Below are positions 1,003 through 18,175 of a DNA stretch of 18,175 nt, in pieces. The notes beneath the pieces were generated by a model, which worked only from the letters and a program-made list of their open reading frames with translations, did no database searches and was not told the DNA's origin. The position numbers and the translations under genes are program-made. The stretch lies in assembly GCA_030039095.1 (NCBI GenBank), contig JASHQP010000554.1, forward strand, positions 1 through 18,175, in the 5' to 3' direction. Origin of the DNA: Streptosporangiaceae bacterium (lineage in GTDB: Bacteria > Actinomycetota > Actinomycetes > Streptosporangiales > Streptosporangiaceae). Every line of letters begins with the position of its first letter. Position 1 is the first letter of the stretch.

Positions 1003-1038
1003 GCCTTCATCGGCGTCTCTAGGAGAGCCGATGAAGGT
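1003..1038 (+). promoter_or_regulatory. Long inverted repeat enclosing the RBS and start codon of the operon's first gene
   Basis: CCTTCATCGGC (1004-1014) and GCCGATGAAGG (1027-1037) are perfect 11-bp complements. After one bulged G (1015), TCTC (1016-1019) pairs with GAGA (1023-1026), leaving a three-base TAG loop. G1003 and T1038 can add a G-U pair. The result is 15 Watson-Crick pairs with a single bulge. The Shine-Dalgarno AGGAG (1021-1025) lies in the loop and upper stem, and the ATG (1031-1033) lies inside the lower stem. In RNA this would mask translation initiation; in DNA it could be an operator with half-sites 23 bp apart. The structure is read directly from the sequence; the function is inferred. 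Confidence 0.7.
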
Positions 1039-2374
1039 TCGAAGATCAGCTAGCGTACTGAGTTTGGTCGCGGCCTGCGCGCTGGCCCTGGCCGCATGCA
1101 GTTCCTCGAGCAGCTCGCCGGGCAGCGCAGCCAAACCCGCCGCGACCACGCCGGCGTCCTCGTCGGGCATCGGTGACTACCACCCGGTCAGCGACTACAT
1201 GGCGTACATCGGCGGGCACTCGGGCGCGGCCAACTCCAAGCTGTCGCCCATCGACATCGGCGTGGTCAATCAGCAGGGCGGCAGCGCGGACATCGCCCCG
1301 GAGTGGACGAACGGCGCGCAGATCGCGGCTGACTTCATCAACTCCGACGCCGGCGGCATCGACGGCCATCCGGTGAAGCTCGTCACCTGCTTCATCCCGG
1401 ATGTTGTCGCCAACGCCGCGCAGTGCGGCCAGGAGATGGCCAACAACTCCGGCGTCCAGGCCGTCTCGGTGGGCGCGGTCGCCATCGGCAACGAGGCGAT
1501 GGAGTCCGCGCTCGCGCCGACGGGCAAGGTGCTCGTCTTCGGCGTCTCCGTCAGCCCGGTCGACACCACGTACAAGAACGGCTACATCCTCTTCGGGGAC
1601 GCAACACACGTGGAGGCGCCCCTCGCGACGTTCATCAAGCAGTACCTGCACTCCAAGAGCGTGGCGATCATCTATCCGGACCTTCCGGGCAGCAACATCG
1701 ACGCCGAGATCACCGAGGCGGCGCTGAAGTACGAGCACGTCCCGGTGAAGGTCGTCGGCTTCGACCCCACCACCACGAACCTTGCCGGACCGGTGATCGC
1801 GTCCGGGGCAGCGACGGCTGGCCTGGTGATCAACGACTCGCCGAGCCCGCAGATCTGCTCCGCGATCTACAAGGCGCTCGAGCAGCTCAACATCACCACG
1901 CCGGTGCTGGCCAACGTGCCGTGCGATTCCACGGTGACCGCCACCGGCGACGGCGGGTCGCTGCCGGTCGGCTGGTACTACGCCAGCGCGAACCCGCTGC
2001 CGGGCGACGCGTCGGATCCCAGCCTGGCGGCCTTCAAGAAGGTCGCGGACCAGTTCGGCAACGCTGTGTACGCCGCGGATGCCTGGACCGCCGACTCGTT
2101 CGCGCAGTTCCTGACCATCGCCAAGTGGGACGGCGATCTGCTCAGGGCCGGCAAGCCGATCACGGCGGCCAACCTGAACGCGCTGGCCAAGTCGTTCAAG
2201 GGCCCGGTGCCGCAGGGCGCACCGACCTTGGTCTGCGGGTCGTTCCCGCAGGCGCCGGCGGTCTGCAACGACGAGGTGTCGTTCTTCCAGAACACCGCGC
2301 CGGGGGTGTTCAAGGCGATCGCCAGGTGGATCGGGCCGCCGGCCGGCTTCGTGATCCCCAAAGGCCTGCAGTGA
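1031..2374 (+). CDS. Liv-type ABC transporter substrate-binding lipoprotein
   Basis: This 447-residue protein should bind the imported substrate outside the membrane and deliver it to the permease and ATPases encoded further along the operon. The N-terminus has a basic start (MKVRR), a hydrophobic segment and a lipobox LAAC with the lipidated Cys at residue 23, followed by a Ser/Pro/Ala-rich linker. The mature part opens with IDIGVVNQQGG and carries a GAQIAADFINSDAGGIDGHPVKL stretch, hallmarks of the type I periplasmic-binding fold of the LivJ/LivK (Peripla_BP_6) family. The ATG at 1031 was chosen because AGGAG lies just upstream and it gives a canonical signal peptide; a GTG at 1001 would add ten residues and has no good RBS. 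The initiation region is folded into a strong hairpin. The stop overlaps the SDR start. Family members bind amino acids, amides, urea or aromatic acids, so the ligand is open. Confidence 0.9.
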   Translation: MKVRRSASVLSLVAACALALAACSSSSSSPGSAAKPAATTPASSSGIGDYHPVSDYMAYIGGHSGAANSKLSPIDIGVVNQQGGSADIAPEWTNGAQIAADFINSDAGGIDGHPVKLVTCFIPDVVANAAQCGQEMANNSGVQAVSVGAVAIGNEAMESALAPTGKVLVFGVSVSPVDTTYKNGYILFGDATHVEAPLATFIKQYLHSKSVAIIYPDLPGSNIDAEITEAALKYEHVPVKVVGFDPTTTNLAGPVIASGAATAGLVINDSPSPQICSAIYKALEQLNITTPVLANVPCDSTVTATGDGGSLPVGWYYASANPLPGDASDPSLAAFKKVADQFGNAVYAADAWTADSFAQFLTIAKWDGDLLRAGKPITAANLNALAKSFKGPVPQGAPTLVCGSFPQAPAVCNDEVSFFQNTAPGVFKAIARWIGPPAGFVIPKGLQ

Positions 2375-3213
2375 GTGCGGTGGTGGACCGGGAGGAGCTT
2401 TCCGGGCAGGTGGCGGTCGTTACCGGGAGCGGCCGGGGATTCGGCCGGGCGATCGCCGAGGGGCTGGCCGCCGCCGGGGCGGCGGTGGTCGTGACCTCGC
2501 GGACCGAGCCGGAGATCGATGACACGGTCACGTCGATCGAGGCGGCAGGCGGCATGGCGCTGGGCGTGGTGGCTGACGTGACCAGGCTGCCGGACGTGCA
2601 GCGCCTGCGGGCTGCGGGCGAGAAGGAGTTCGGGCCGGTGACCCTGGCCGTCCACAACGCGGGGGTGCCGTGGCCGTTCGGGCCCACCTGGCTGGTGGAC
2701 CCGGGCCGGTGGTGGAGCGCCCAGCAGGTTCACGTGCTCGGGGCGATGCACTGCATCTCCGCGTTCGTGCCCGCCATGGTGCAGGGTCAGGGCGGCCGGG
2801 TGATCGTGATCTCCAGTGCCGGGGGCACCAGGGTCACCCCGTACATGTCCGGTTATGCCGTGGCGAAGGCCACCCAGATAAGGCTGGTCCAGTTCCTGGC
2901 CGCCGAGGGCCGGGACGCGGGCGTGTCCGCCTTCGCCGTTCACCCCGGCGACGAGCTCACCGGGATCTCCGACCTGACGATGAGCGACCCGGACGCCCAG
3001 CGCTGGGTGCCCTGGTTCGTCGGCGACCTGACCAGCCGCAAGGAGGCAGGGTCCGACGGCACCGCGGGCTTCCGCGCGTGTGCCACGCTCTGCGCACGGC
3101 TCGGCTCCGGCCGCTACGACCGGCTCTCCGGCCAGTACCTGACTCCCGGTGACGACCTCGACGGGCTGCCGGACACCGAGTTCGAGGACGCGGCCGCGGC
3201 CAGTCCGCCCTGA
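2371..3213 (+). CDS. Short-chain dehydrogenase/reductase (SDR)
   Basis: The 280-residue length is normal for a classical SDR, a cytosolic NAD(P)-dependent oxidoreductase acting on alcohols or ketones. The cofactor motif TGSGRGFG is at residues 18-25, the NAG motif at 96-98 (HNAG), the catalytic Ser at 148/149 (VISSAGG), and the YxxxK pair is Tyr162 and Lys166 (YAVAK). A PG turn follows (HPGDELT). The Asn that usually completes the catalytic tetrad appears to be His121 (QQVHVLG). An Arg at residue 44 at the end of the second strand (VVVTSRTEP) is compatible with NADP preference, but this is weak. The GTG start overlaps the preceding TGA as GTGA, and AAAGG at 2360-2364 gives the RBS, so translation is probably coupled to the binding protein. 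The position suggests oxidation of a hydroxyl on the imported compound or an intermediate. Confidence 0.88.
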   Translation: MSAVVDREELSGQVAVVTGSGRGFGRAIAEGLAAAGAAVVVTSRTEPEIDDTVTSIEAAGGMALGVVADVTRLPDVQRLRAAGEKEFGPVTLAVHNAGVPWPFGPTWLVDPGRWWSAQQVHVLGAMHCISAFVPAMVQGQGGRVIVISSAGGTRVTPYMSGYAVAKATQIRLVQFLAAEGRDAGVSAFAVHPGDELTGISDLTMSDPDAQRWVPWFVGDLTSRKEAGSDGTAGFRACATLCARLGSGRYDRLSGQYLTPGDDLDGLPDTEFEDAAAASPP

Positions 3214-3224
3214 TCCGGGACGTG

Positions 3225-3250
3225 CAGGGCAGCGATGTCTCAGTGCCCTG
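3225..3250 (+). promoter_or_regulatory. Intercistronic inverted repeat between SDR and CoA-transferase genes
   Basis: CAGGGCA (3225-3231) and TGCCCTG (3244-3250) are perfect 7-bp complements with a 12-base loop. It fills most of the 55-base gap and ends ten bases before the AGGAGG RBS of the next gene. No T-tract follows, so it is not a standard terminator. It may affect mRNA stability or partial read-through; function is unproven. Confidence 0.3.
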
Positions 3251-3268
3251 GTGGGCGATAGGAGGAGC

Positions 3269-5551
3269 ATGCGCGGTCCGCTGACCGGCCTGCGGGTCAT
3301 CGACTTCGGCCAGTATGTGGCCGGCCCGCTTGCCGCCGTGCTGCTCGCCGACCAGGGTGCCGAGGTCATTCATGTCGATCCGCCGGGCGGCCCGCGCTGG
3401 GGTGGCGTCGCCGACGCGTTCCTCAACCGGGGCAAGCGCCGGGTGATCCTCGACCTGAAGCGGCCGGCCGACCTCGACGCCGCGCGGCGGCTGATTGCCT
3501 CGGCGGATGCCGTGATCGAGAACTTCCGGCCCGGCGTGCTCGGGCGGCTCGGCCTGGCCCCCGAGTCGCTGGTGTCGCAGTGCCCCGGGCTGATCGTGTG
3601 CTCCATGCCGGGCTTCGGCCGCGACGATCCGCGTGCCCGGCTGCGCGGCTTCGAGGGCATCATCGCCGCGGCGACGGACAACTGCCATCCGCGCGTGGGC
3701 GAAGAGCCACCCGGCTGGGACTGGAGCCGGCCCACGTACTCCGCGCTGCCGCTCGCCTCCAGCTTCGCCGCCTACCTCGCGGGCGTGAGCATCGTGATGG
3801 CGCTGATCGCGCGGCGCCGAACCGGCCGCGGCCAGCTGGTCGAGGTGCCGCTGTTCGACGCCATGTTCACGCTGATCGGGCACTCCGGCGCGTACGCGGA
3901 CCAGCGGGGCCTGCGTCCGCCGCGTGGCATCCACGGCCGTGGTGCGGGCACGTTCCGGTGCAGCGACGGCCGGTTCGTCCAGTTCGACACCTCGAGCCCG
4001 CGGCATCTGTCCTGGTACGCCCGCGCCGCCGGGCTGCTCGGCAGCTTCGACGCCGACCTGCTCGACCTGGCCGCCAACGCCAGCCCCGAGGTGAACGAGC
4101 GGCTGCACGAGCGGCTGCGCGCGGAGTTCGCCACCCGCACCGCCTTGCAGTGGGAGGACCTGGGGAACGCGGCCGGCGCCGCCATCGGGTTCGTGCGCAC
4201 GCCGGCCGAGTGGATCGGCACCGAGCACGCCAGGCTGAGCCACGCCGTGGCGCAGGTCGAGGATCCCGAGCTCGGCCCGATCTGGTGCGCGGGGCTGCCG
4301 GTCTGGCTCGGCGCGTTCCCCGACCCGAAGGTCGAGCCACGCCGGCTGCCCGGTCAGGACACGCTCGAGGTGCTGGCGGAGGTGGCGGATGCGCCGCCGC
4401 TGGAGACCGGGCCCGGGCCAGAGCCCGGTCTCGACCGCCCGCTGGACGGCATCCGGGTGCTCGATCTCGGGCTCGCGCTCGCCGGGCCGACCTGCGGGCG
4501 GATCCTGTCCGAGTTCGGCGCGGACGTGGTGAAGGTCAGCGCGCCGAACGCCGGCGTCGGCGGGTACCTGAACCGCGGCAAGGAGTCCATCCTGGTCGAC
4601 CTCGCGACCGTGGCCGGCCAGGAGGTCTACTGGCGGCTGGTGGACCGTGCAGACGTCGTGCTGGAGAACTTCTCCCCTGGCACCGCCGACCGCCTGGCGA
4701 TCGGTCACGCGGAGGTGCGCGCGCGCCGGCCCGGGGTCGTGTACGCGTCGATCAGCTGCTACGGCCTCGGCGGGCCGTGGCAGGGCCGCCGGGGGTGGGA
4801 GCGCCAGGGTCAGGCGGTGACCGGGATCATGGAACGCACCGGGCTGCCGTCGGTGCTCGGCCCCTACAACATCGTCGACATCGGCACCGGCATCCTCGGC
4901 GCGTTCGCCATCGCGCTCGGGCTGTACCACCGCCAGCAGACCGGCGAGGGCGGGCTGGTGAGCGGGTCGCTCGCGCAGACCGGGACCTACCATCAGGCCA
5001 TCTTCATGTTCGACGTCCCCGGCTACGTCCCGTCCGAGCCGCGTGGGTACGCGGCCCTCGGCGAAGGGCCGCTGCAGCGGTTCTACCGCGCCAGCGACCG
5101 GTGGTTCTTCCTCGGCGCCCGCCCGGCCGACCTGCCCGCGCTCGCCGAGATCACTGGCTCGGCAGACCTGGCCAGCCGCGCCGGCCCGGCTCTCGGGCAT
5201 GAACTCGCCGACGCGTTCAAGGGCGAATGCGCCGTCGGGCTGGTCGGCAGGCTCACCGACGCGGGCATCGCCGCCCACGCCGTGGTGCCGATAGCGGAGC
5301 TGATGACCGACGACGTGGTGCGGGCGCGCGGGCTGAGCGTGACCCAGGAGGTGCCCGGCGCGGGAAGCTGCACGATGCCGGGCATCTCGCCGCGGCTTTC
5401 CGCGACGCCTGCCCGGGTCGGGCGGCCGCCCCGGCAGCCGGGCGCGGACGCGGAGGCCGTGCTGGCCGCGGTCGGCATGGCCGACAGGCTGGATGCGCTC
5501 GACCGGAGCTGGGTGGTGCGGGCCACCGAGCTGCCAGCGGCGTGGCCATAG
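3269..5551 (+). CDS. Tandem class III (CaiB/BaiF) CoA-transferase, two modules in one chain
   Basis: At 760 residues the protein is about twice the usual 380-430 of class III CoA-transferases, which move CoA between carboxylic acids. Module 1 starts at residue 1 with PLTGLRVIDFGQYVAGP; module 2 restarts at about residue 389 with PLDGIRVLDLGLALAGP. Each has the FLNRGK/YLNRGK, NFRPG/NFSPG and TGRGQ/TGEGG segments of the family. In module 2, Asp537 (NIVDIGTG) sits where the catalytic Asp is expected. Aligning module 1 without gaps from its TGRG motif puts Ser164 at that position, so module 1 is probably non-catalytic. The DMSP enzyme DddD has a similar two-domain design with its active Asp in the second half, but this protein cannot be equated with DddD. 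The ATG follows AGGAGG at 3260-3265. Likely role: CoA activation of an acid intermediate. Confidence 0.9.
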   Translation: MRGPLTGLRVIDFGQYVAGPLAAVLLADQGAEVIHVDPPGGPRWGGVADAFLNRGKRRVILDLKRPADLDAARRLIASADAVIENFRPGVLGRLGLAPESLVSQCPGLIVCSMPGFGRDDPRARLRGFEGIIAAATDNCHPRVGEEPPGWDWSRPTYSALPLASSFAAYLAGVSIVMALIARRRTGRGQLVEVPLFDAMFTLIGHSGAYADQRGLRPPRGIHGRGAGTFRCSDGRFVQFDTSSPRHLSWYARAAGLLGSFDADLLDLAANASPEVNERLHERLRAEFATRTALQWEDLGNAAGAAIGFVRTPAEWIGTEHARLSHAVAQVEDPELGPIWCAGLPVWLGAFPDPKVEPRRLPGQDTLEVLAEVADAPPLETGPGPEPGLDRPLDGIRVLDLGLALAGPTCGRILSEFGADVVKVSAPNAGVGGYLNRGKESILVDLATVAGQEVYWRLVDRADVVLENFSPGTADRLAIGHAEVRARRPGVVYASISCYGLGGPWQGRRGWERQGQAVTGIMERTGLPSVLGPYNIVDIGTGILGAFAIALGLYHRQQTGEGGLVSGSLAQTGTYHQAIFMFDVPGYVPSEPRGYAALGEGPLQRFYRASDRWFFLGARPADLPALAEITGSADLASRAGPALGHELADAFKGECAVGLVGRLTDAGIAAHAVVPIAELMTDDVVRARGLSVTQEVPGAGSCTMPGISPRLSATPARVGRPPRQPGADAEAVLAAVGMADRLDALDRSWVVRATELPAAWP

Positions 5552-5566
5552 CGGTACTGGGGTTCG

Positions 5567-5580
5567 CGGGGGTGTCCCCG
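5567..5580 (+). repeat. Short GC hairpin before the first MetE-like gene
   Basis: CGGGG (5567-5571) and CCCCG (5576-5580) pair around a GTGT tetraloop in the 51-base gap between the CoA-transferase and the MetE-like gene. It is short and there is no T-tract. It is recorded for completeness as the only structure in this gap. Confidence 0.2.
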
Positions 5581-5602
5581 GTTCGGAGAAAGGCAGAAAA
5601 CC

Positions 5603-6760: not shown

Positions 6761-6772
6761 GAGGAGAACATC

Positions 6773-7399: not shown

Positions 7400-7410
7400 G
7401 CAGGTATGGC

Positions 7411-9417
7411 GTGTCCGAGGTCATAGCGTTCCTGTTGCTCGGGATCGGCTCCGGCGGCCTGATCGCGGGCGTGGGGATGGGCGTCGTGCTGAGCTACCGC
7501 GGCGGCGGGGTGATCAATCTCGCGGTCGGTGCGATAGCGATGCTGGCCGGCTACTTCTTCTGGTCGATCACGGCTGGGGAATTCGCCACGATACCCACGG
7601 TCCTCGCGGTCATCATGACACTGATCTTCGCGGCGGTCGTGGGCGTGGCATTCGAGTTGCTCGTGGTCCGGCCGCAGCGGACCGCGACGCCGCTGGCCAA
7701 GCTGATCGCCGCGCTCGGGGTGCTGCTGGCGCTCCAGGCGGCGGTCATCCTGGCCTTCGGCCAGGCCTCGCGGCCGCAGCCGACGATCCTGCCCACCCAG
7801 AATCTGATCATCTCGGGCGCGCCGGTGGCGGTGTACAACTTCATCATCGGCGGCATCCTGCTGGTGATCGCTGCCGGGCTGATCGCGCTCTACCGGTGGA
7901 CCAGGTTCGGGCTGTCCACCAGGGCGGCGGCGGAGAACGAGGCGCACGCCATGTTCATGGGTCTGTCGCCGAACTGGCTGTCGCTGGTGAACACCGTGAT
8001 GATGAGCGTGCTGATGGGCGTCATCGGCCTGCTCGCCGCGTCGGTGACCCAGCTCGACAGCCAGACCCTGCCGCTGCTCGTGGTGCCCGGGCTGGCCGCG
8101 GCGATGTTCGGGCGGTTCACCTCGTTCGGTGTGACGTACGTGGCCGGCATCCTGCTCGGCATGGGTGAGTCGCTGCTGCTGTACCTCACCACGCTGTCCT
8201 GGTTCCCGAGCAACGGCGGGCCCGGGATACCGCTGCCCGGCGTCCAGGAGCTGCTGATCTTCCTGGTGCTGGTGGTGGCGATGTTCTTCCGGGCCGGGAA
8301 GATCCCGGGCCGCGGGGACGTGCTCGAGCGGCGGCTCCCGATCGCCCCCAGGCCCAGGGCGCCGTTGCGCAGCACGCTGATCTACGGCGCGCTGGCCGCG
8401 GTCGCGCTGCCGCTGCTGCCCGGCGGCTTCCGCGCCGCCCTGATCGTGTCGCTCATTTCCGCGATCCTGCTGCTGTCGCTGGTGATCATCACCGGCTACC
8501 TTGGCCAGGTCTCCGTGGTCCAGCTCGCGCTCGGCGGTGCCGCGGGCTTCGCGGTCTCGCACTTCGCGATCAACTTCGGCATCGGCTTCCCGGCGGCCCC
8601 GATCATGGGGATCATCGTCGCGACCCTGCTCGGGCTTGTCTGCGGCATCCCGGCGCTGCGCGTACGCGGCGTGAGCCTGGCGGTGGTGACCCTGGCCGCC
8701 GCCGTGGCCATCGAGGACTTCGGCTTCGCGAACACCAGCTGGGGCGGCGGCTACACCGGCTCCCCGGTGCCCGCCCCCTCGCTGCTGGGCTTCGACTTCG
8801 GCCCGAACGCATCCCTGCACGGGCTGTTCGGGCCCGAGCCGAGCCCGCTGTTCGGCTGGTTCGTGCTCATCGTGCTCGCGGTGATCGGGCTGCTCGTGTG
8901 CAACCTGCGGCGCAGCGCGCTCGGCCAGGACATGCTGGCGGTGCGTGCGAACGAGCGGGCGGCGGCGGCCGCGGGCATCGACGTGCGCTACACCAAGCTG
9001 CTCGGCTTCGCGCTGTCGGCCGCGATCGCGGGTGTGGGCGGGGTGCTGCTGGCCTACCAGTACGCGTCCATCACCGCGGACAGCTACGACACGTTCACGG
9101 CGCTGGCGCTGATCGCCTTTGCCTACATCTCCGGCATCACCACCGTGGCGGGCGCGGTCTGGGGCGGGCTCATCTTCATCGGCGGCATCTTCGCCTACGC
9201 GCTGCAGGACTGGTTCGGGCTGCAGGGCGAGTGGTTCACGCTGGTCGGCGGGCTGCTGCTGGTCCTCACGCTGGTGCAGCAGCCGCAGGGGGTGGCGACC
9301 GGGCTGTTCTACGGCGACAGACCCCTGCGCATCTCGCTGCCGCTGCGCGGGCGGGGCGGCCCGCCGCAGACCCCCGAGCCGGCGGACAGCGTCGGCGAGG
9401 CGAAGGTGGCGTCATGA
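7411..9417 (+). CDS. Fused LivH-LivM type ABC transporter permease
   Basis: One 668-residue membrane protein contains both permease halves of a Liv (branched-chain amino acid type) importer. The LivH half covers about residues 1-300, beginning GIGSGGLIAGVGMGVVLSYRGGGVINLAVG, with its cytoplasmic ATPase-contact loop near residues 170-190 (RAAAENEAHAMFMGL). A short basic linker (RRLPIAPRPRAPLR) leads to the LivM half from about residue 320, with TGYLGQVSVVQLALGG and a second contact loop near 511-530 (VRANERAAAAAGID). The GTG start at 7411 follows CAGG at 7401-7404 and lies 11 bases after the dioxygenase stop; an ATG at 7406 is in the wrong frame. The stop overlaps the LivG start as ATGA. Placement inside the enzyme operon shows the transporter serves this pathway. 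Confidence 0.93.
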   Translation: MSEVIAFLLLGIGSGGLIAGVGMGVVLSYRGGGVINLAVGAIAMLAGYFFWSITAGEFATIPTVLAVIMTLIFAAVVGVAFELLVVRPQRTATPLAKLIAALGVLLALQAAVILAFGQASRPQPTILPTQNLIISGAPVAVYNFIIGGILLVIAAGLIALYRWTRFGLSTRAAAENEAHAMFMGLSPNWLSLVNTVMMSVLMGVIGLLAASVTQLDSQTLPLLVVPGLAAAMFGRFTSFGVTYVAGILLGMGESLLLYLTTLSWFPSNGGPGIPLPGVQELLIFLVLVVAMFFRAGKIPGRGDVLERRLPIAPRPRAPLRSTLIYGALAAVALPLLPGGFRAALIVSLISAILLLSLVIITGYLGQVSVVQLALGGAAGFAVSHFAINFGIGFPAAPIMGIIVATLLGLVCGIPALRVRGVSLAVVTLAAAVAIEDFGFANTSWGGGYTGSPVPAPSLLGFDFGPNASLHGLFGPEPSPLFGWFVLIVLAVIGLLVCNLRRSALGQDMLAVRANERAAAAAGIDVRYTKLLGFALSAAIAGVGGVLLAYQYASITADSYDTFTALALIAFAYISGITTVAGAVWGGLIFIGGIFAYALQDWFGLQGEWFTLVGGLLLVLTLVQQPQGVATGLFYGDRPLRISLPLRGRGGPPQTPEPADSVGEAKVAS

Positions 9418-10199
9418 CGGCTTTGCTGCAGGCCAGTGGTGTCTGCGTGAACTTCGGCTCGGTCCGTGCGCTGGCGGGCGTCGACATTGAAGTGCCGGCC
9501 GGCCAGCTCGTCGGGCTCATCGGCCCGAACGGGGCCGGCAAGACGACGTTCATCGACGCAGTGACCGGGTTCGTACCCGCCGGCGGCCAGGTGCTGTTCG
9601 GCGGGCAGGACATTTCCGGGGCGCCCCCGCATGTCCGGGCCAGGCTCGGCCTGGCCCGGACCTGGCAGACCATCGAGCTGTTCGACGACCTGACCGTGCA
9701 CGAGAACCTGGTGGTGGCGGCGCGGCGGCCGACGCTGGTCGGTTCGTTCAGGGAAGTGGTGCTGGGCCGGAACCGGCGCGCCGAGGCCAGGGTCGACAAC
9801 GCGATCCGGGTCCTCGAGCTCGAGGAGTTCGTCGACCGGATGCCGGGCGAGCTGCCCCAGGGCAAGCGCAAGCTGGTCGGCGTCGCCCGCGCGCTCGCCG
9901 GGGAGTCGAACCTGATCCTCCTGGACGAGCCGGCCTCGGGCCTGGACACGTCGGAGAGCCTCGACCTCGGCCGGCGGCTGCGCCGGGTGGTGGACGAGGG
10001 GGTGTCCATGCTCCTCGTCGACCACGACATGGGCCTTGTGCTGACCATCTGCGACAACGTGTACGTGCTCGACTTCGGCCGCCTGCTGGCGCACGGCGCG
10101 CCCGCCGAGGTGCGCAATGACCCGCAGGTGCTGGCCGCCTACCTCGGCGGCGCGGCGGGCGGCCAGGTGCCGTCGGGGGCGCTGGGGGAGGACAAGTGA
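9414..10199 (+). CDS. livG: LivG-like ABC transporter ATP-binding protein
   Basis: This 261-residue nucleotide-binding subunit powers the Liv-type importer from the cytoplasmic face. Walker A GPNGAGKT is at residues 37-44, the signature region is LPQGKRK at 147-153, Walker B ends in Asp171-Glu172 (LILLDEP), and the switch His follows in LLVDHDM. The signature departs from LSGGQ, with Pro replacing Ser; LivG proteins of actinobacteria often vary here, so I do not take this as inactivation. The ATG overlaps the permease stop (ATGA), and its own stop overlaps the LivF GTG, so the permease and both ATPases are translationally coupled. It is assigned as LivG rather than LivF by order, by its longer helical insert around residues 100-125, and by its looser signature. 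Confidence 0.9.
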   Translation: MTALLQASGVCVNFGSVRALAGVDIEVPAGQLVGLIGPNGAGKTTFIDAVTGFVPAGGQVLFGGQDISGAPPHVRARLGLARTWQTIELFDDLTVHENLVVAARRPTLVGSFREVVLGRNRRAEARVDNAIRVLELEEFVDRMPGELPQGKRKLVGVARALAGESNLILLDEPASGLDTSESLDLGRRLRRVVDEGVSMLLVDHDMGLVLTICDNVYVLDFGRLLAHGAPAEVRNDPQVLAAYLGGAAGGQVPSGALGEDK

Positions 10200-10945
10200 C
10201 CGGCCAGATGCTCGAGATCGACGACCTGTCGGCCGGCTACAACGGCGCCGAGGTCATCAGGCACATCAGCATCACGGTCGGCAGCGGCGAGGTGGTCGCG
10301 CTGTTCGGCCCGAACGGGGCCGGCAAGACCACGACGCTGCGCGCCATCTCCGGCCTGGTGCACCCGACGCGCGGCCGGGTGGTCTACGAGGGCAGGGATC
10401 TGGCCAGGCAGTCGCCGACCTCGCGCGCCCGTGCCGGGATCGCGCACGTGCCGGAGGGACGCGGCATATTCTTCGGCCTGACCGTGGCCGAGCACCTCAG
10501 GCTCGGCTACCGCGGCGAGCGTCTGGACCCCGCGATCGTCTACGAGTACTTTCCCGCGCTCCAGCCTCTCACCGGCCGCCGCGCCGGGCTGCTGTCCGGC
10601 GGTGAACAGCAGATGCTCGCGGTCGGCCGGGCGCTGGCCCGACGCCCCAGGCTGCTGCTGCTCGACGAGCTGAGTCTCGGGCTCGCGCCCATGCTCGTGG
10701 AGCGGCTGCTGCCGGTGGTGCGCACGTACGCCCAGGACAGTGGCTGCGCCGTCCTGCTGGTCGAGCAGCACGTGCAACTGGCCACCGAGATCGCGGATCG
10801 CTGCTATGTGCTGTCGCACGGCGACATCGTGCTGCACGAGACCGCTGCGCGGCTGCTGCAGGCTCCGGCGATCCTGTTCGCCAGCTATGTCGGGCAGCAG
10901 GCGTTGCCGGCCGATGAAGCTGCCGCGCCGGGGAGCGGCACGTGA
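10196..10945 (+). CDS. livF: LivF-like ABC transporter ATP-binding protein
   Basis: This 249-residue second ATPase of the importer has Walker A GPNGAGKT at 38-45, a canonical signature LSGGE at 133-137, Walker B Asp157-Glu158 (LLLLDEL) and the H-loop in LLVEQHV. The motif HVPEGRGIFFGLTVAEHL is typical of LivF, where PEGR-type sequences follow the Q-loop. The GTG at 10196 overlaps the LivG stop and has GGAGG at 10186-10190 at good spacing; an in-frame ATG at 10208 is a less likely start. It presumably pairs with the LivG-like protein as a heterodimer beneath the fused permease. A 92-base gap follows before the ThDP enzyme gene. Confidence 0.92.
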   Translation: MTGQMLEIDDLSAGYNGAEVIRHISITVGSGEVVALFGPNGAGKTTTLRAISGLVHPTRGRVVYEGRDLARQSPTSRARAGIAHVPEGRGIFFGLTVAEHLRLGYRGERLDPAIVYEYFPALQPLTGRRAGLLSGGEQQMLAVGRALARRPRLLLLDELSLGLAPMLVERLLPVVRTYAQDSGCAVLLVEQHVQLATEIADRCYVLSHGDIVLHETAARLLQAPAILFASYVGQQALPADEAAAPGSGT

Positions 10946-11037
10946 CGATCCGCGGCCCGCGCCCGGTGAGCGGGAAGCCCGGCCCCGCCGCGCATCAGAG
11001 ATCGCCCATCCGCCCGACGTCCGTGCAGGAGAGAGAG

Positions 11038-12765: not shown

Positions 12766-13820
12766 CGACCGAGTTCAGCTACGACGTCGACGCCCACTGG
12801 GAACAGCTTCCTGCCGGGATAACGCACAAGGACGTGTCGGCGGTGGGCGTCGACTCGCACGACCGCGTGTACGTGCTCACCAGGCATGACTCGAACCTCC
12901 TCGTGTACGAGTCCGACGGCTCGTTCATCACCGCCTGGGGCGGCGGTGCCTTCACCAACCCGCACGGGCTGACCGTGGGCCCGGACGACGCGGTGTACAC
13001 CGTGGACAACGGCGACCACTCGGTGCGCAAATTCTCACCGGACGGCAAGCCGCTGATGACGCTGGGCCGGCCGGGCGAGCCGGCCGACACCGGCCACCAG
13101 CAGGGCGTGCCGTTCATCGTGCACAACGTGGAAACGGTCAAGCGGCCTGGTCCGCCGTTCAACGGCTGCACGAACCTTGCCGTCGCGGCGGACGGCCGCA
13201 TCTACGTCGCCGACGGCTACGGGAACTGCCGCGTGCACGTGTTCGCGCCGACCGGAGAGCTGCTCTCGTCCTGGGGCGACGTGGGCATCGGGCCAGGGGA
13301 GTTCCACCTGCCGCACGGCATCGCGATCGGCCCGGACGGGCGGGTGTACGTCTGCGACCGGGAAAACGACCGCATCCAGGTCTTCGACGCCGGCGGCGGC
13401 TACCTCACCGAGTGGACCGACGTGCAGCGGCCGTGCCAGATCGCCGTCGACCCCGCCGGTTACGCGTACGTGGCCGAGCTGTGGCGGCCCAAGGGCAAGG
13501 GCTCGTTCACGCACGGGTTCATGCGCGAGGACCGGCCGGGCCGGGTCACGATCTACGACCGGTACGGGTCCATCGTCGCCCGGTGGGGCGCCAGCACGAT
13601 CAACCGTGCCGCACCAGGCTGCTTCGTCGCGCCGCACGGCATCGCCGTCGACTCGCGCGGCGACGTGTACGTCTGCGAGGTCACTTACACGTTCGGCATC
13701 CGGGCCAACGGCCTGGACCCGGCCGAGTGCGGTGCTCACCAGATCCAGAAGTTCACCCGCCGCGACGGCCAGGCCGGCCCACGGGAAACGCAGCGGACAG
13801 GAAGGAATGCGGGCAGATGA
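12762..13820 (+). CDS. NHL-repeat beta-propeller resembling peptidyl-alpha-hydroxyglycine alpha-amidating lyase (PAL)
   Basis: The 352-residue protein is built of NHL-type blades; clear ones start near residues 25, 64, 132, 181, 224 and 289. Three PHG(I/L) motifs place His68, His185 and His292 at equivalent blade positions, spaced 117 and 107 apart, close to the zinc His spacing in eukaryotic PAL. The segment DGYGNCRVHVF, with Tyr153, matches the DGYxNxR motif holding the catalytic Tyr of PAL, and Arg41 (LTRHD) may match its catalytic Arg. PAL splits carbinolamides (N-C-OH) into an amide and an aldehyde such as glyoxylate. There is no signal peptide, so it should act in the cytosol, probably on a small molecule rather than a secreted peptide. 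The GTG start and ATGA end overlap both neighbours. The fold call is firm; the lyase activity is inferred from residues. Confidence 0.82.
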   Translation: MTTEFSYDVDAHWEQLPAGITHKDVSAVGVDSHDRVYVLTRHDSNLLVYESDGSFITAWGGGAFTNPHGLTVGPDDAVYTVDNGDHSVRKFSPDGKPLMTLGRPGEPADTGHQQGVPFIVHNVETVKRPGPPFNGCTNLAVAADGRIYVADGYGNCRVHVFAPTGELLSSWGDVGIGPGEFHLPHGIAIGPDGRVYVCDRENDRIQVFDAGGGYLTEWTDVQRPCQIAVDPAGYAYVAELWRPKGKGSFTHGFMREDRPGRVTIYDRYGSIVARWGASTINRAAPGCFVAPHGIAVDSRGDVYVCEVTYTFGIRANGLDPAECGAHQIQKFTRRDGQAGPRETQRTGRNAGR

Positions 13821-15028
13821 AGCTGAGCACCGACCGGATCCGGGTGACGCACGGCGGAAACCTGCCCCGGCCGAAGCCGTTCGACGAACTGCTGCGCCAG
13901 GGTGCCGTGGTAACCGCCGAGGTGGCCGGGCAGTTGCCGGCCGCGGTGCGGGGCGTGGTGGACCGCCAGATCGAGTGCGGCGTGGACGTTGTCAACGACG
14001 GCGAATACGTCAAAGCGGCCGGCGGCGGCAGCTATGCCGGGTACATCCACCAGCGGGTGGCCGGGTGGGAGGTGCTGCCGGTCGACCCCGCGCAGCCGCG
14101 GAAGCGGGAAGGCGTGGCAGCGCGTGAGCGGCGGATGTTCCCGGGGGTCTACGAGTCCGGCCTGTGGCTGTCGGGATCCGGCGGCCCGGTCCGGCCCGGC
14201 TTCTTCACGCCGGGAGCGCCGCCGGAGCCGACGACCGAACGGGTGTGCACGGGCCCGGTCGCTTATACCGGGCACGCCGCGATCAAGGCAGACGTGGACG
14301 CGCTGACCATGGCGCTGGAGGGGAGGGACACCGACCAGGTCGAGGGGTTCGTTGCCGCGCTCGGCCCGCTCAGCCTGGGTGCGGGCGCCCGCAACGAGTA
14401 TTACGCCAGCGAGGACGAGTACATGACCGCCGTGGCCGAGTGCGTGCGCGAAGAGTACAAGGCGATCACCGACGCCGGGCTGATCGTGCAGATCGATGAG
14501 CCCGAGTTCGCAACCTCCTGGCAGTTCTACCCGGACTGGGACGTCGACCAGTACCACAGGTACCTGGCCTTCTGCGTCGAGATCATCAACCACGCGCTGG
14601 AGGGCCTGCCGGAGGAGCGGGTGCGGTTCCATGTGTGCTGGGGATCCGGGCACCGGCCGCATGTCACCGACATCGGCCTGGCTCACATCGCCGGCCATCT
14701 CCTGAGCATCAACGCGCAGGCCTACTCGGTCGAAGCCGGCAACGTCCGGCACGCCCATGAATGGCGCGTCTGGGACGACGTCAAGCTCCCCGACGGCAAG
14801 ATCCTGGTCCCAGGCGTCGTCTCCCACGCGACCGATCTGGTCGAGCACCCCGAGCTCATCGCCGAGCGCCTGGTGAACTTCGCCAGCGTCGTGGGGAAGG
14901 AGAGCCTGCAGGCCGGGACGGACTGCGGCATCGGCTCCCGGGTCGGCCACGAGGACATCGTCTGGGCCAAGCTGCGGGCCATGTCCGAGGGCGCGGCGCT
15001 TGCAAGCAGGCAACTCTCGGGCAAGTGA
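13817..15028 (+). CDS. Short MetE-like zinc enzyme, copy 2
   Basis: This 403-residue protein is a paralogue of the product of 5603-6760. Shared landmarks are THGGNLPRP at the N-terminus, VVNDGEY, an NEYYASEDEYMTAV segment (NEYYATDEEYAFAI in copy 1), and the complete zinc set His272 and Cys274 (FHVCWGS), Glu306 (YSVEAGN) and Cys370 (GTDCGIG). It differs by a roughly 20-residue Gly/Pro-rich insertion around residues 95-140 and by AAGGGSYAGY in place of SSWSAY after NDGEY, so the two probably act on different alkyl donors or acceptors. The ATG overlaps the propeller gene stop as ATGA, with AGGAAGG about ten bases upstream. Like copy 1, it lacks the N-terminal barrel of classical MetE and no corrinoid protein is encoded nearby. 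Confidence 0.87.
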   Translation: MKLSTDRIRVTHGGNLPRPKPFDELLRQGAVVTAEVAGQLPAAVRGVVDRQIECGVDVVNDGEYVKAAGGGSYAGYIHQRVAGWEVLPVDPAQPRKREGVAARERRMFPGVYESGLWLSGSGGPVRPGFFTPGAPPEPTTERVCTGPVAYTGHAAIKADVDALTMALEGRDTDQVEGFVAALGPLSLGAGARNEYYASEDEYMTAVAECVREEYKAITDAGLIVQIDEPEFATSWQFYPDWDVDQYHRYLAFCVEIINHALEGLPEERVRFHVCWGSGHRPHVTDIGLAHIAGHLLSINAQAYSVEAGNVRHAHEWRVWDDVKLPDGKILVPGVVSHATDLVEHPELIAERLVNFASVVGKESLQAGTDCGIGSRVGHEDIVWAKLRAMSEGAALASRQLSGK

Positions 15029-15043
15029 TGGAGGCGTGACGGC

Positions 15044-16267
15044 ATGACGTATGACCTGGTGATCAAGGGCGGCCACGTGCTGGACCCCGGCCAGGGGCTG
15101 GACGAAGTGCTGGACATCGCGATCAGCGGTGGCAAGATCGCGCGGATCGCCGGGGACATCTCAGCCGCGGATGCGGCGCGGGTGATGGAGATACGCGGGC
15201 CGGGCCGGCACGTCGTGCCCGGGCTGATCGACCTGCATACCCATGTGGCGCACGGTGCGGTCACCGAAGGCGTCGGGATGGGATGCTGTGACCCCGACGT
15301 CATTGGCGTGCGGTCCGGGGTCACCACGGTTGTGGACTGCGGCTCGGTCGGCGTGGCGAACATCGGGGTATTCCCGGCGCACATTCTGCCGAGAACCGCC
15401 ACCCGGGTGATCACCTACGTCAACATCGGCAGCCACGCGCACACGATGCCCGGCCCGGCGGACGTCGCCAGCCTGGACGACATCGACCGTGCCGCGCTCG
15501 AGTCATGCGCGGAGCACAACCCCGGCCTGATTGCCGGCGTCAAGCTCCGGCTGGTGGGCCCGGCCATGGCCGAGCTCGGCGAGGAAGTGATCAGGGCGTC
15601 CAGGCAGGCAGCCAGGTACCACAGCGTCCCCCTTATGGTGCACATCGGCGACTTCACCGCCACGACCGAGGAAGCGGCGAAGCGATCCGGGCAGCTGACC
15701 AGGTTCCTGCTCCAGACGATGGAGCCCGGCGACATCCTGACCCATTTGTGCACGCCGAACGCCGGGCGGGTGCTCGACTCCTCCGGCCATCCATACCCCG
15801 AGGTTGCGGAGGCCCGTGCGAACGGTGTCGTGCTCGACTCGGCGCTAGGCCGGGGCAACTTCGGCTACGAAGTCGCCAGCCGGCAGGCCCAGCTCGGGCT
15901 GCACCCCGACACGATCAGCAGCGACCTGACGGCCCTCGGACAGACCTTCCACAGCCTGCTGGAGTGCATGGCCAAGTTCATGGCCATCGGGTACAGCCTC
16001 CCCGACGTGGTGCGGATGACGACGGCCAACCCGGCCAGGGTCCTGGGCATGGCCGACGAGATCGGCGCGCTCGCGGTCGGCAGGGACGCCGATGTCACGA
16101 TCCTGGAGCTGTCCGAAGGAGACTTCAGCTTCACCGACACCACGGGCCGGGCGTTCCGTGGGGGCTACGGCCTCGTTCCCGTGCAGACGCTCCGCGCTGG
16201 CCAGGTCCATGCGCCGCACTGGGGCACTCACCCTTGGGGCTGGCTGCCGGCGTCGGCGGGCCAGTGA
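15044..16267 (+). CDS. Amidohydrolase-superfamily metallohydrolase (amidohydrolase/deacetylase type)
   Basis: The 407-residue cytosolic protein has the composite fold of the superfamily: an N-terminal beta segment with VIKGGHVLDPGQ, then the barrel. The dinuclear metal ligands are all visible: His65 and His67 (LHTH), Lys167 as the likely carboxylated bridge (AGVKLRL), His200 (MVHIGD), His234 (LTHLCTP) and the catalytic Asp294 (SSDLT). The C-terminal NPARVLGMADEIGALAVGRDADV segment is typical. The closest recognisable group is the amidohydrolase/deacetylase set related to dihydroorotase and D-aminoacylases, which hydrolyse amides, cyclic imides or esters. It is the last gene of the plus-strand run, 15 bases after the second MetE-like gene, with GGAGG at 15030-15034 as RBS. 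It may hydrolyse the amide released by the propeller lyase, but that link is a guess. Confidence 0.88.
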   Translation: MTYDLVIKGGHVLDPGQGLDEVLDIAISGGKIARIAGDISAADAARVMEIRGPGRHVVPGLIDLHTHVAHGAVTEGVGMGCCDPDVIGVRSGVTTVVDCGSVGVANIGVFPAHILPRTATRVITYVNIGSHAHTMPGPADVASLDDIDRAALESCAEHNPGLIAGVKLRLVGPAMAELGEEVIRASRQAARYHSVPLMVHIGDFTATTEEAAKRSGQLTRFLLQTMEPGDILTHLCTPNAGRVLDSSGHPYPEVAEARANGVVLDSALGRGNFGYEVASRQAQLGLHPDTISSDLTALGQTFHSLLECMAKFMAIGYSLPDVVRMTTANPARVLGMADEIGALAVGRDADVTILELSEGDFSFTDTTGRAFRGGYGLVPVQTLRAGQVHAPHWGTHPWGWLPASAGQ

Positions 16268-16273
16268 CCAGTC

Positions 16274-16292
16274 GCCGGCGGGCAGGGCCGGC
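16274..16292. terminator. Possible bidirectional hairpin at the convergent gene junction
   Basis: Two copies of the self-complementary hexamer GCCGGC (16274-16279 and 16287-16292) can pair around a 7-base loop in the 33-base gap between the converging amidohydrolase and ammonia-lyase genes. There is no T-tract on either strand. GC-only hairpins occur often by chance in this composition, so this is a weak call. Confidence 0.25.
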
Positions 16293-16300
16293 ATCCCACC

Positions 16301-17905
16301 TCACCGCAGTTCGCCGCCGGCGGCGGACACGGCTGCGGCGAGCCTTCCGCTGCGGAGCAGGTCCTCGGCGGCGGCGAGCTCCGGCGCCAGGAACCGGTCG
16401 GCGCCCGGGCCCGGCACGGCAGTGCGCAGCTCGGCGACGGCGGCAGCGGTGGCCCGCGAGGGCTGCAGCGGGGCCCGCAGGTCGATGCCGCGAGCGGCGG
16501 CGACCAGCTCAATGGCCAGGATCCGGCGCAGGTTCGCGACCGAGGAGCGCAGCTTGCGCGCCGCGCCCCAGCCCATCGACACGTGATCCTCCTGCATCGC
16601 CGAACTCGGGATCGAGTCCACGCTGGCCGGGGCGGCCAGCCGCTTGTTCTCGGCGACCATCGCGGCCTGGGTGTACTGCGCGATCATCAGGCCGGAGTCC
16701 ACGCCGGGGTCGTCCGCCAGGAACGGCGGCAGGCCGCCCGAGCGCGCCGGGTCCAGCAGCCGGTCGGTGCGCCGTTCCGCCATCGAGCCCAGATCGGCGG
16801 CCGCGATCGCGAGGAAGTCGAGCACGTAGGCGACGGGCGCGCCGTGGAAGTTCCCGTTCGAGGTCACCCGGCCGTCGGCCAGCACGACCGGGTTGTCGAT
16901 CGCGGCGGCGAGTTCCCGCGCCGCCACGGTCTCGGCGTGCGCCACCGTGTCCCGCACCGCCCCGGTGACCTGCGGGGCGCAGCGCAGCGAGTACGCGTCC
17001 TGCACCCGGGTGTCGCCCTCACGGTGCGAGGCGACGATCTGCGAGCCGGCCAGCACCCGCAGCATGTTGTCCGCGCTGGCCGCCTGGCCGGGATGCGGCC
17101 GCAGCGGCAGGTGCAGCTCGGGCAGGAACACCTGGTCGGTGCCCAGCAGCGCCTCGACGCTCATCGCGGCGATGACGTCGGCCGCCGTGCACAGCGCGGC
17201 GAGGTCGGCGCAGGCCATGATCAGCATGCCGAGCATGCCGTCGGTGCCGTTGATGAGCGCCAGCCCCTCCTTCGCCTCCAGGGCGACCGGCGTGATCCCG
17301 GCGCGGTCGAGGGCCGCCGCGCCGGACACCCGCTCACCCTCCCTCGTCATCGCCTCGCCCTCGCCGAGGAGCACGAGCGCGCAGTGCGCGAGCGGGGCGA
17401 GGTCGCCGCTGCAGCCGAGCGACCCGTGCTCCGGCACCACCGGGGTGATGCCGGCGTTCAGCATGGCCGCGAGCGTCTCGGCCACCACCGGCCTGACGCC
17501 GGTCCGGCCGGACGCGAGCGTCTTGCACCGCAGGAACATGAGCGCCCGGACGACCTCCCGCTCGACCGGGTCCCCGGCGCCGGCCGCGTGCGACCGGATG
17601 AGGCTGAGCTGCAGCTTCGCGCGCAGGTCCGGGCTGATGTGCCGGGTGGCGAGCGCCCCGAACCCGGTCGAGATGCCGTAGGCGGGCGTGGGCGCCGCGG
17701 CGAGGTCGTCGACGACGCTGCGCGAGGCGGCCATCGCGTCCAGCGCCGCCGCCGCCAGCCGGACCGGTGCGTCGCGCCTGGCGACCTCCAGCACGTCGGC
17801 CGGGGTGACCCCGGCCGTCCCGATCACGATCTCGCCGGCTGTCTCGCCGGCCTCGGTCTGTGCCGCGGGCACGGCGTCGCTCAGCACGGGCTCGGTCGCG
17901 GTCAT
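16301..17905 (-). CDS. Histidine/aromatic amino acid ammonia-lyase family protein (MIO-type)
   Basis: At 534 residues this matches HAL-family size. Family enzymes eliminate ammonia from histidine, phenylalanine or tyrosine using an MIO electrophile made from an internal tripeptide. That tripeptide here is Cys165-Ser166-Gly167 in GSLGCSGDLAPLAH instead of the usual Ala-Ser-Gly; Ser and Gly are intact, so MIO formation remains plausible. Other family residues are in place: Tyr76 (YGISTGFG), the VQDAYSLRC segment, and AENKRLAAPASVDSIPSSAMQEDHVSM. The substrate-selecting pair is Ser105-His106 (LIRSHAAG), the pattern of histidine ammonia-lyases rather than PAL. The ATG is preceded on the minus strand by AAAGGAG six bases away. 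It runs opposite to the main operon and 45 bases after a third MetE-like gene, with no other hut genes, so simple histidine degradation is not certain. Confidence 0.88.
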   Translation of the reverse strand: MTATEPVLSDAVPAAQTEAGETAGEIVIGTAGVTPADVLEVARRDAPVRLAAAALDAMAASRSVVDDLAAAPTPAYGISTGFGALATRHISPDLRAKLQLSLIRSHAAGAGDPVEREVVRALMFLRCKTLASGRTGVRPVVAETLAAMLNAGITPVVPEHGSLGCSGDLAPLAHCALVLLGEGEAMTREGERVSGAAALDRAGITPVALEAKEGLALINGTDGMLGMLIMACADLAALCTAADVIAAMSVEALLGTDQVFLPELHLPLRPHPGQAASADNMLRVLAGSQIVASHREGDTRVQDAYSLRCAPQVTGAVRDTVAHAETVAARELAAAIDNPVVLADGRVTSNGNFHGAPVAYVLDFLAIAAADLGSMAERRTDRLLDPARSGGLPPFLADDPGVDSGLMIAQYTQAAMVAENKRLAAPASVDSIPSSAMQEDHVSMGWGAARKLRSSVANLRRILAIELVAAARGIDLRAPLQPSRATAAAVAELRTAVPGPGADRFLAPELAAAEDLLRSGRLAAAVSAAGGELR

Positions 17906-17915
17906 CGGCGGCTCC

Positions 17916-17943
17916 TTTGTCGTCGGCGAGCGTTTGTCGTCGG
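17916..17943 (-). repeat. Two 11-bp direct repeats just before the ammonia-lyase RBS
   Basis: TTTGTCGTCGG occurs at 17916-17926 and again at 17933-17943, 17 bases apart. On the minus strand each reads CCGACGACAAA, and the second copy runs into the AAAGGAG Shine-Dalgarno of the ammonia-lyase gene. The pair fills most of the 45-base gap between the MetE-like and ammonia-lyase genes. It could be a tandem binding site or a local duplication. Confidence 0.6.
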
Positions 17944-17950
17944 TGTGGGG

Positions 17951-18175
17951 TCAGCCCCAGACGTCTCGGGCGGTCTCTACGATCAGCCGGAGCTTGGCCA
18001 CCTCCTGGTCGTAGCTGACGACGTTGCCCTCGACGGTGGAGGAGAAGCCGCACTGCGGGGACAGGCACAGCTGGTCCAGCGGCACGTACTTGGCGGCCTC
18101 GTCGATCCGCCGCTTCAGCGCGTCCTTGGACTCCAGCCCGCCCCGCTTGGTGGTGACCAGGCCGAGCACGACCAT
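17951..18175 (-). CDS. Third MetE-like (methionine synthase II family) protein, C-terminal fragment at window edge
   Basis: Only the last 74 residues are visible; the frame is open to the window end and the Met there is internal to the family fold. The segments VVLGLVTTKRGGLESKDALKRRIDEA and LCLSPQCGFSST, then a C-terminal LRLIVETARDVWG, are characteristic of the cobalamin-independent methionine synthase C-terminal domain, and Cys42 of the fragment is the last zinc ligand. The motif SPQCGF differs from the ADCGF and TDCGI of the two plus-strand paralogues, so this is a distinct branch. It precedes the ammonia-lyase gene in the same direction with a 45-base gap and is probably co-transcribed with it. 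Confidence 0.85.
   Translation of the reverse strand: MVVLGLVTTKRGGLESKDALKRRIDEAAKYVPLDQLCLSPQCGFSSTVEGNVVSYDQEVAKLRLIVETARDVWG

Follow-up and report, generated by a model that had tools for sequence, protein, structure and literature searches.

The 18,175-nucleotide contig JASHQP010000554.1 from a Streptosporangiaceae bacterium (assembly GCA_030039095.1), analysed here over its whole length (the window), carries an operon of twelve plus-strand genes between positions 1031 and 16267. In order, these genes encode a substrate-binding lipoprotein, an SDR dehydrogenase, a double-domain CoA-transferase (CaiB2), a short MetE-like protein (MetE1), an intradiol dioxygenase-like protein, a fused LivH-LivM permease, the ATPases LivG and LivF, a thiamine diphosphate (ThDP) enzyme, a propeller protein, a second short MetE-like protein (MetE2) and an amidohydrolase (Table 1). 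Successive genes are spaced by -4, 55, 51, 12, 11, -4, -4, 92, -4, -4 and 15 bases, which agrees with an earlier note on this DNA, made from the sequence alone, that had counted twelve genes with five 4-base overlaps and no gap wider than 92 bases. The complete Liv-type importer described in that note is also present, with LivH and LivM joined in a single protein, as is the gene pair facing the operon. Domains were called for 15 window proteins by using Pfam and NCBIfam. The nearest named relatives of the window are Streptosporangiaceae/Trebonia genomes assembled from metagenomes.

Table 1. Genes of the twelve-gene operon and of the facing pair (aa, amino acids).
Feature	Positions	Strand	Family or model
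Liv-type substrate-binding lipoprotein (Peripla_BP_6), 447 aa	1031-2374	+	Pfam PF13458
SDR dehydrogenase, 280 aa	2371-3213	+	PF00106; overlaps the preceding gene by 4 bases
CaiB2, double-domain class III CoA-transferase, 760 aa	3269-5551	+	PF02515, two stretches
MetE1, short MetE-like (core) protein, TTG start, 385 aa	5603-6760	+	PF01717 only
Intradiol ring-cleavage dioxygenase-like protein, 208 aa	6773-7399	+	PF00775, 59.6 bits
Fused LivH-LivM permease, 668 aa	7411-9417	+	PF02653 (BPD_transp_2), two stretches
LivG ATPase	9414-10199	+	PF00005 and PF12399
LivF ATPase	10196-10945	+	PF00005
ThDP enzyme, acetolactate-synthase-like (NCBIfam), 575 aa	11038-12765	+	PF02776, PF00205, PF02775
NHL/PAL-like six-bladed propeller, 352 aa	12762-13820	+	NHL by Pfam
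MetE2, short MetE-like (core) protein, 403 aa	13817-15028	+	PF01717
Amidohydrolase, metal-dependent, deacetylase-type, 407 aa	15044-16267	+	PF01979; metal-site motifs present
HutH histidine ammonia-lyase, convergent neighbour	16301-17905	-	TIGR01225, 666 bits against a cut-off of 539.15
MetE3, C-terminal 74 aa of a third MetE-like protein, truncated by the window end	17951-18175	-	PF01717 at its cut-off, 21 bits

The operon recurs in related genomes. A scan of genome contigs with MetE2 yielded 65 loci (L numbers; genomes carry G numbers), in which contig ends are scored as misses. Genes were called by a simple composition-based program, which overlooks some of them, including a 460-aa open reading frame (ORF) in L085, and puts others in the wrong frame; in genome searches, a limited number of first-pass candidates was scored per genome. 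One genome (G001, loci L002 and L085) has all twelve genes in the same order, their proteins being 65-81% identical to those of the window, and carries two insertions. Its lipoprotein, which is cut by a contig end in L085, is 65% identical over 278 of the 447 residues, its SDR dehydrogenase is 75% identical, and ThDP enzyme counterparts in L001, L002 and L004 are 77-78% identical. One insertion, between LivF and the ThDP enzyme, encodes a thiolase-type protein and a ChsH2-type OB-fold protein; the other, between SDR and CaiB2, is the 460-aa ORF (L085 12932-14314, minus strand), which is absent from the window and by eye resembles a type I CoA-transferase.

Across the 65 loci, the neighbours of MetE2 differ from those of other MetE-like genes. 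The 19 MetE2 loci (at least 55% identity) include 17 with the propeller, 9 with the amidohydrolase and 5 with CaiB2, whereas the corresponding numbers for the 46 other MetE-like loci are 1, 0 and 0. In all 17 propeller-bearing MetE2 loci the propeller and MetE2 genes are adjacent on one strand. MetE2 adjoins a SMP-30/gluconolactonase-type propeller in L016 (10001-12235, alphaproteobacterial) and CaiB2 in L018, the two MetE2 loci that lack the NHL propeller. Whole-genome searches added five genomes in which amidohydrolase, propeller and MetE2 genes are consecutive in every case, with CaiB2 upstream and an importer that by eye is of the dipeptide rather than the Liv type. Named strains that carry the core include Pseudonocardia thermophila DSM 43832, Phytohabitans maris and Sphingomonas gei. 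In L005 and L006, CaiB2, MetE1, the intradiol protein, propeller, MetE2 and amidohydrolase are kept without Liv or ThDP genes in between, and no MetE1, intradiol or ThDP gene was seen in the available stretches of L007, L014, L019 and L077-L081.

Among 150 genomes surveyed from the order to which G001 belongs, MetE2 (E < 1e-100) occurs in seven, one of them with a protein just 43% identical, whereas CaiB2 (E < 1e-150) and the propeller (E < 1e-60) each occur in six. These are the identical six genomes (module genomes), MetE2 is present in each of them, and the genes lie on a single contig within about 14 kb; the co-occurrence statistics ignore shared ancestry. In a tree of 28 MetE-like proteins, nine MetE2 sequences from Actinomycetota, Chloroflexota and Alphaproteobacteria form one clade (support 100/100), outside which MetE1 falls. 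The Phytohabitans MetE2 groups with alphaproteobacterial sequences at moderate support (91/90), a placement that hints at horizontal spread.

Because the full gene order recurs in G001 and core parts recur in three phyla, the twelve-gene operon is a real, co-inherited unit beyond chance. Its wider core consists of CaiB2, amidohydrolase, propeller and MetE2, whereas MetE1 with the intradiol protein, the ThDP enzyme and the type of importer vary by lineage. This core very probably constitutes a co-inherited catabolic unit. The single co-evolved pathway suggested by the earlier note thus stands as far as co-inheritance and a catabolic-looking gene content are concerned, but the twelve genes are not indivisible; the neighbourhood comparison in relatives, which could have exposed the genes as unrelated neighbours, instead found the core neighbours recurring.

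Short MetE-like proteins such as MetE1 and MetE2 resemble the core methionine synthases (core-MetE; MesA-MesD; PMC7005905, PMC7857596), which are PF01717 proteins lacking a folate-binding N-terminal domain. MetE1 likewise has a MetE catalytic domain without this N-terminal domain. The zinc ligands His, Cys, Glu and Cys of core-MetE are kept in both proteins (H250, C252, E284 and C348 in MetE1; H272, C274, E306 and C370 in MetE2). The homocysteine-site residues are also kept in MetE1 (S15, placed by motif position, E65 and D205), which retains all seven MetE residues listed in the relevant passage of PMC7857596. MetE2 retains six of the seven: its E63 and D227 are kept, and the homocysteine-site Glu and Asp are conserved in 17 of 17 and 18 of 18 aligned sequences, but the equivalent of Ser433 is N15. 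Unlike core-MetE, MetE1 and MetE2 reside in catabolic-looking operons beside a propeller gene. They also differ from the MesD/MesX system, given that DUF1852 (MesX) is absent from the 15 scanned window proteins and MetE2 matches the MesD structure 3rpd weakly (41 bits). The MetE2 model has a predicted local distance difference test score of 87.5, and its 32 top-ranked solved chains are all of the MetE family. Relatives of MetE2 scoring E < 0.001 number 7850 and, where named by their source, are mostly methionine synthase-type methyltransferases.

The propeller has the six-bladed NHL fold of peptidyl-α-hydroxyglycine α-amidating lyase (PAL). Residues R41, H68, Y153, H185, R200 and H292 are invariant in 16 of 16 aligned sequences, and these three His, one Tyr and two Arg residues appear to occupy the places of the PAL catalytic set. 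The model superposes on 3fvz across 282 residues, and TRIM/Thin NHL domains fit equally well. Unlike PAL, the propeller is without an adjoining PHM-type monooxygenase gene and is instead paired with MetE2. Given the retention of these PAL-like residues, the propeller may cleave carbinolamides. The amidohydrolase has solved relatives 8wzy, 8je0, 2ics and 2ogj, and shares metal-site motifs with the Cog3964 enzymes Atu3266 (2ogj) and EF_0837 (2ics) (127 and 129 bits), from which it differs in that its best NCBIfam model, PRK09237, scores 333 bits, under the cut-off of 371. These two enzymes presumably hydrolyse acetyl-mandelate. In CaiB2, the VDIGTG motif, whose Asp we take to be catalytic, occurs in domain 2 only. 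The ThDP enzyme carries the Glu of the HGEKA motif and a GDG...NN motif, both of which we assume to have their customary roles. The intradiol-like protein, whose nearest solved relatives are 4ilv and 4ilt, has Y100, Y129, H136 and H138 as candidate iron ligands.

Several observations link the core to aromatic compounds. Ring-opening dioxygenases of three kinds, which have different folds, occur near it: intradiol-like proteins in the window, L002, L005 and L006; BphC-like proteins in four of nine alphaproteobacterial loci and all five Streptosporangiales clusters, all those scanned scoring under NCBI equivalog cut-offs; and LigA with LigB in the Chloroflexota locus L018. A LigB-type protein is also encoded in L065, a locus of more distant kinship (Dehalococcoidia; MetE2-like protein 39% identical). 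Furthermore, a LigI-like amidohydrolase (Amidohydro_2, 44-48% identity) is common to seven of nine alphaproteobacterial loci and four of five Streptosporangiales clusters. Sphingomonad loci carry major facilitator superfamily (MFS) genes of the aromatic-acid/H+ symport kind, under the NCBI cut-off, and by eye TonB receptors.

A second link concerns methyl groups. Upstream of the core in all five Streptosporangiales clusters (L104-L108) lies a one-carbon (C1) block encoding methylenetetrahydrofolate reductase (MTHFR), a 492-aa protein (u492), a further core MetE, an S-adenosylmethionine (SAM) synthetase (MetK), PurU, a PfkB-type kinase and a BphC-like dioxygenase, with MetK 10-17 kb from CaiB2. 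This MetK is an additional copy that forms a separate type, at least 73% identical to the L104 protein, compared with roughly 62-66% for the housekeeping copy. Among the matches listed, the second type occurs in 8 of the 150 genomes, namely all six module genomes, G013 and G124 (hypergeometric P 2e-9 for association with the module, uncorrected for ancestry). Similarly, u492 is found in nine of the 150, comprising the six module genomes, G013, G124 and G076, and also in G002, G003, G007 and the Chloroflexota genome G009. The protein (for example L104 9100-10578; also in L105-L108, L113, L114 and L116-L121) matches no Pfam or NCBIfam model, and its gene adjoins MTHFR and core MetE genes both in Actinomycetota and in a single Chloroflexota genome, L118 being an exception in which core MetE was not seen. 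By analogy, u492 may serve the neighbouring core MetE as MesX serves MesD. A 457-aa sphingomonad protein encoded beside MetE genes is not detectably related to u492 (probability 0.2, very shallow alignments).

The C1 block takes other forms elsewhere. The Pseudonocardia genome G007 has u492, core MetE, MetK, PurU and kinase genes on a contig separate from that of the module, and no PfkB-type kinase was found in the C1 block of G001; in both genomes the block genes lie mostly together on their contigs. Partial matches to MTHFR and PurU lie within 11 kb of the propeller-MetE2 pair in L015, an alphaproteobacterial locus. The tested actinobacterial carriers of the module therefore keep genes that shuttle methyl groups among folate, methionine and SAM, and the block is distributed more widely than the module. 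Upstream of the Pseudonocardia thermophila cluster, L109 918-9931 encodes an MttB-like methyltransferase (below cut-off), a formate-tetrahydrofolate ligase, a weakly cyclohydrolase-like protein and, by eye, proteins like electron-transfer flavoproteins.

We tentatively propose, at somewhat less than an even chance of being right, that the operon imports and aerobically degrades an O-, N- or S-methylated aromatic compound, probably an acid, ester or amide, whose methyl group is passed to homocysteine by MetE-like zinc enzymes. The Liv importer would take up the compound, the amidohydrolase would hydrolyse an ester or amide and the propeller would perform a lyase step, such that amidohydrolase, propeller and MetE2 together release the side-chain and alkyl groups. 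A zinc-activated thiol, most likely homocysteine, would accept the methyl group on MetE2 (and on MetE1 in the family of the window). The methyl group would then enter the methionine and SAM pool, where it could be handled by the actinobacterial block of MTHFR, u492, core MetE and second MetK, often with PurU and kinase. The SDR dehydrogenase, CoA-transferase and ThDP enzyme would contribute oxidation and acyl processing, and a ring-opening dioxygenase (of the intradiol type in the window) would open the ring. Gene content, retained site residues, conserved order and co-occurrence are direct observations; the identities of substrate and thiol, the way in which the methyl group moves and the sequence of reactions are inferences. 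The gene content of relatives and the co-occurrence data also support the themes of alkyl transfer, CoA activation and aromatic ring opening raised in the earlier note. A more specific proposal, which we regard as doubtful, is that the system represents a new aerobic demethylation of aromatics that is free of cobalamin and folate at that step, in which MetE-type zinc enzymes and a PAL-type propeller act with homocysteine as acceptor and a dedicated block with the second SAM synthetase takes the methyl group away.

Several points weigh against methyl transfer from an aromatic substrate to homocysteine. We know of no enzyme shown to demethylate an aromatic compound by a MetE-type mechanism, MetE2 has Asn at the Ser433 site, and the 15 scanned window proteins include no monooxygenase able to make a PAL substrate. 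The intradiol-like protein is small and divergent, and ring-opening genes are not universal: BphC-like proteins are missing from more than half of the alphaproteobacterial loci, and queries with ring-opening dioxygenases found none in L007, L014 and L019. More distant propellers (42% identity) are encoded on rhizobial plasmids, where the annotation listed around them names no MetE. The methyl link is also imperfect. In G001 the C1 block (MTHFR, u492, core MetE, MetK and PurU) lies on contigs other than that of the module, and u492 is absent from four of four sphingomonad genomes. Conversely, second MetK and u492 in G013 and G124, and u492 in G076, occur without the module, and two loci of MetE-like proteins from outside the MetE2 clade (L028 and L029) have PurU-like genes as well. 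Two housekeeping-type MetK matches are present, among the matches listed, in G010, G029, G073 and G115. Finally, it is just as conceivable that the C1 block provides SAM for a methylation reaction.

This last point is the basis of an alternative that we consider fairly improbable, in which MetE1 and MetE2 are methionine synthases and the MetK, MTHFR and PurU genes supply SAM to a methyltransferase acting on the substrate or a product. The presence of MTHFR, core MetE and MetK in one block does read as a route from folate through methionine to SAM, and u492 resembles a SAM-dependent methyltransferase by eye. However, MetE1 and MetE2 sit within operons for import, CoA transfer and ring opening and not in the SAM block, for which a separate core MetE is encoded, and u492 matches none of the Pfam and NCBIfam models. 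The Asn of MetE2 hints at a different thiol, and one MetE2 homologue (P0047) is publicly named epoxyalkane--coenzyme M transferase; MetE2 might thus be a zinc thiol transferase of that kind, whose thiol opens an epoxide or adds to an electrophile before the propeller or amidohydrolase completes the reaction. We judge this improbable, given that the homocysteine-site Glu and Asp are kept throughout the aligned sequences, that the 15 scanned proteins include none recognisable as an enzyme of coenzyme M synthesis and that the association with SAM-cycle genes would be left unexplained. Improbable to much the same degree is the presence of several partial pathways on one transcript, with CaiB2, amidohydrolase, propeller and MetE2 tied together and MetE1, the intradiol protein, the ThDP enzyme and SDR acting on other compounds. 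The loci described above that lack ThDP and Liv genes in between (L005 and L006), or that show no MetE1, intradiol or ThDP gene, fit such an arrangement, but G001 keeps the full order, and the ThDP and propeller genes are joined by a 4-base overlap.

The facing genes had suggested yet another pathway. The earlier note had counted the ammonia-lyase as a pathway member and had named an imidazole compound among the possible substrates, and catabolism of histidine betaine or an ergothioneine-type imidazole could employ this enzyme, since the pair facing the operon comprises HutH and a third MetE-like gene. However, the protein scores above the NCBI cut-off for HutH, and we judge it to be an ordinary enzyme outside the module because HutH occurs in 141 of the 150 genomes (mostly at 65-72% identity), of which just six have CaiB2 and the propeller, and because HutH and the module lie on different contigs in G001. 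Moreover, among the best 12 of the 141 HutH loci, none has a MetE3 match in flanks of up to roughly 1.5 kb. Since the ammonia-lyase is not a pathway member, the reason for an imidazole substrate falls away, and we regard this alternative as very improbable. The HutH cofactor triad, which is usually Ala-Ser-Gly, reads Cys-Ser-Gly here and in all of these best 12 related loci. MetE3 could be a member of the module: related C-termini occur in L058 (78%), L121 (75%) and L050 (59%), and the one in L121 is some 8 kb away from the C1 block of G002.

Some further observations concern the surroundings of the module. Positions 2-748 of the window, outside the coordinates named in the earlier note, hold the end of an MFS gene. 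Pairs of thiolase-type and ChsH2-type genes occur in or near MetE-like clusters in two phyla (L085 3514-5117 and L065 766-2554, both on the minus strand), which suggests an acyl-CoA retro-aldol step. A DUF6282 protein and a 309-aa protein without a Pfam family are common to Streptosporangiales and Phytohabitans clusters (L077 16550-18395, minus strand, and relatives). The Chloroflexota genome G009, from which L018 derives, is 8.3 Mb in size and has 35 MetE2 matches, some of them partial, representing a large expansion of MetE-like proteins. On rhizobial plasmids, the distant propeller genes neighbour CoA-transferase, 4-carboxy-4-hydroxy-2-oxoadipate aldolase and hydantoinase genes (L067) or genes for amidohydrolases, a Rieske protein and a VOC protein (L069). 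Plasmid searches found relatives below 60% identity only, and the best MetE2 relative among them adjoins metE and propionate genes. We considered a Rhodococcus NJ-530 plasmid locus (L068; CaiB2 43% identical) as a carrier of the same pathway and rejected it, because the best matches of its LLM, VOC and FAH proteins among the called proteins of L001-L065 reach no more than 28-35% identity (a comparison that does not extend to the ribB and flavin reductase genes of L068).

Every enzyme family in the operon is known, and a description of their combination was not found in the open-licence PubMed Central literature, in line with the earlier note, whose author knew of no characterised pathway with this gene set. 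A parallel to the proposed demethylation is offered by LigM and DesA of Sphingobium SYK-6, which carry out tetrahydrofolate-dependent O-demethylation, LigM/DesA representing a GcvT-type demethylase that uses folate. The likeness extends to a methylated aromatic substrate, entry of the methyl group into the one-carbon pool and linked genes of the MTHFR and PurU type, and LigAB- and LigI-type genes occur near some module clusters. In contrast, a MetE-type zinc enzyme is proposed for the module.

These findings tie one clade of MetE-like proteins without a folate-binding domain to apparent catabolism. The MetE2 clade travels with a propeller lyase and, in Actinomycetota, also with an amidohydrolase and a CoA-transferase. 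If demethylation is indeed its function, the module would add a route for the use of methoxylated or N-methylated aromatic matter, and would provide a testable function for a large family whose names may mislead. The 35 MetE-like matches of the Chloroflexota genome would then constitute a catalogue of demethylases. Even if the demethylation model fails, the genes that co-occur with MetE2 represent a short list for a single knock-out study.

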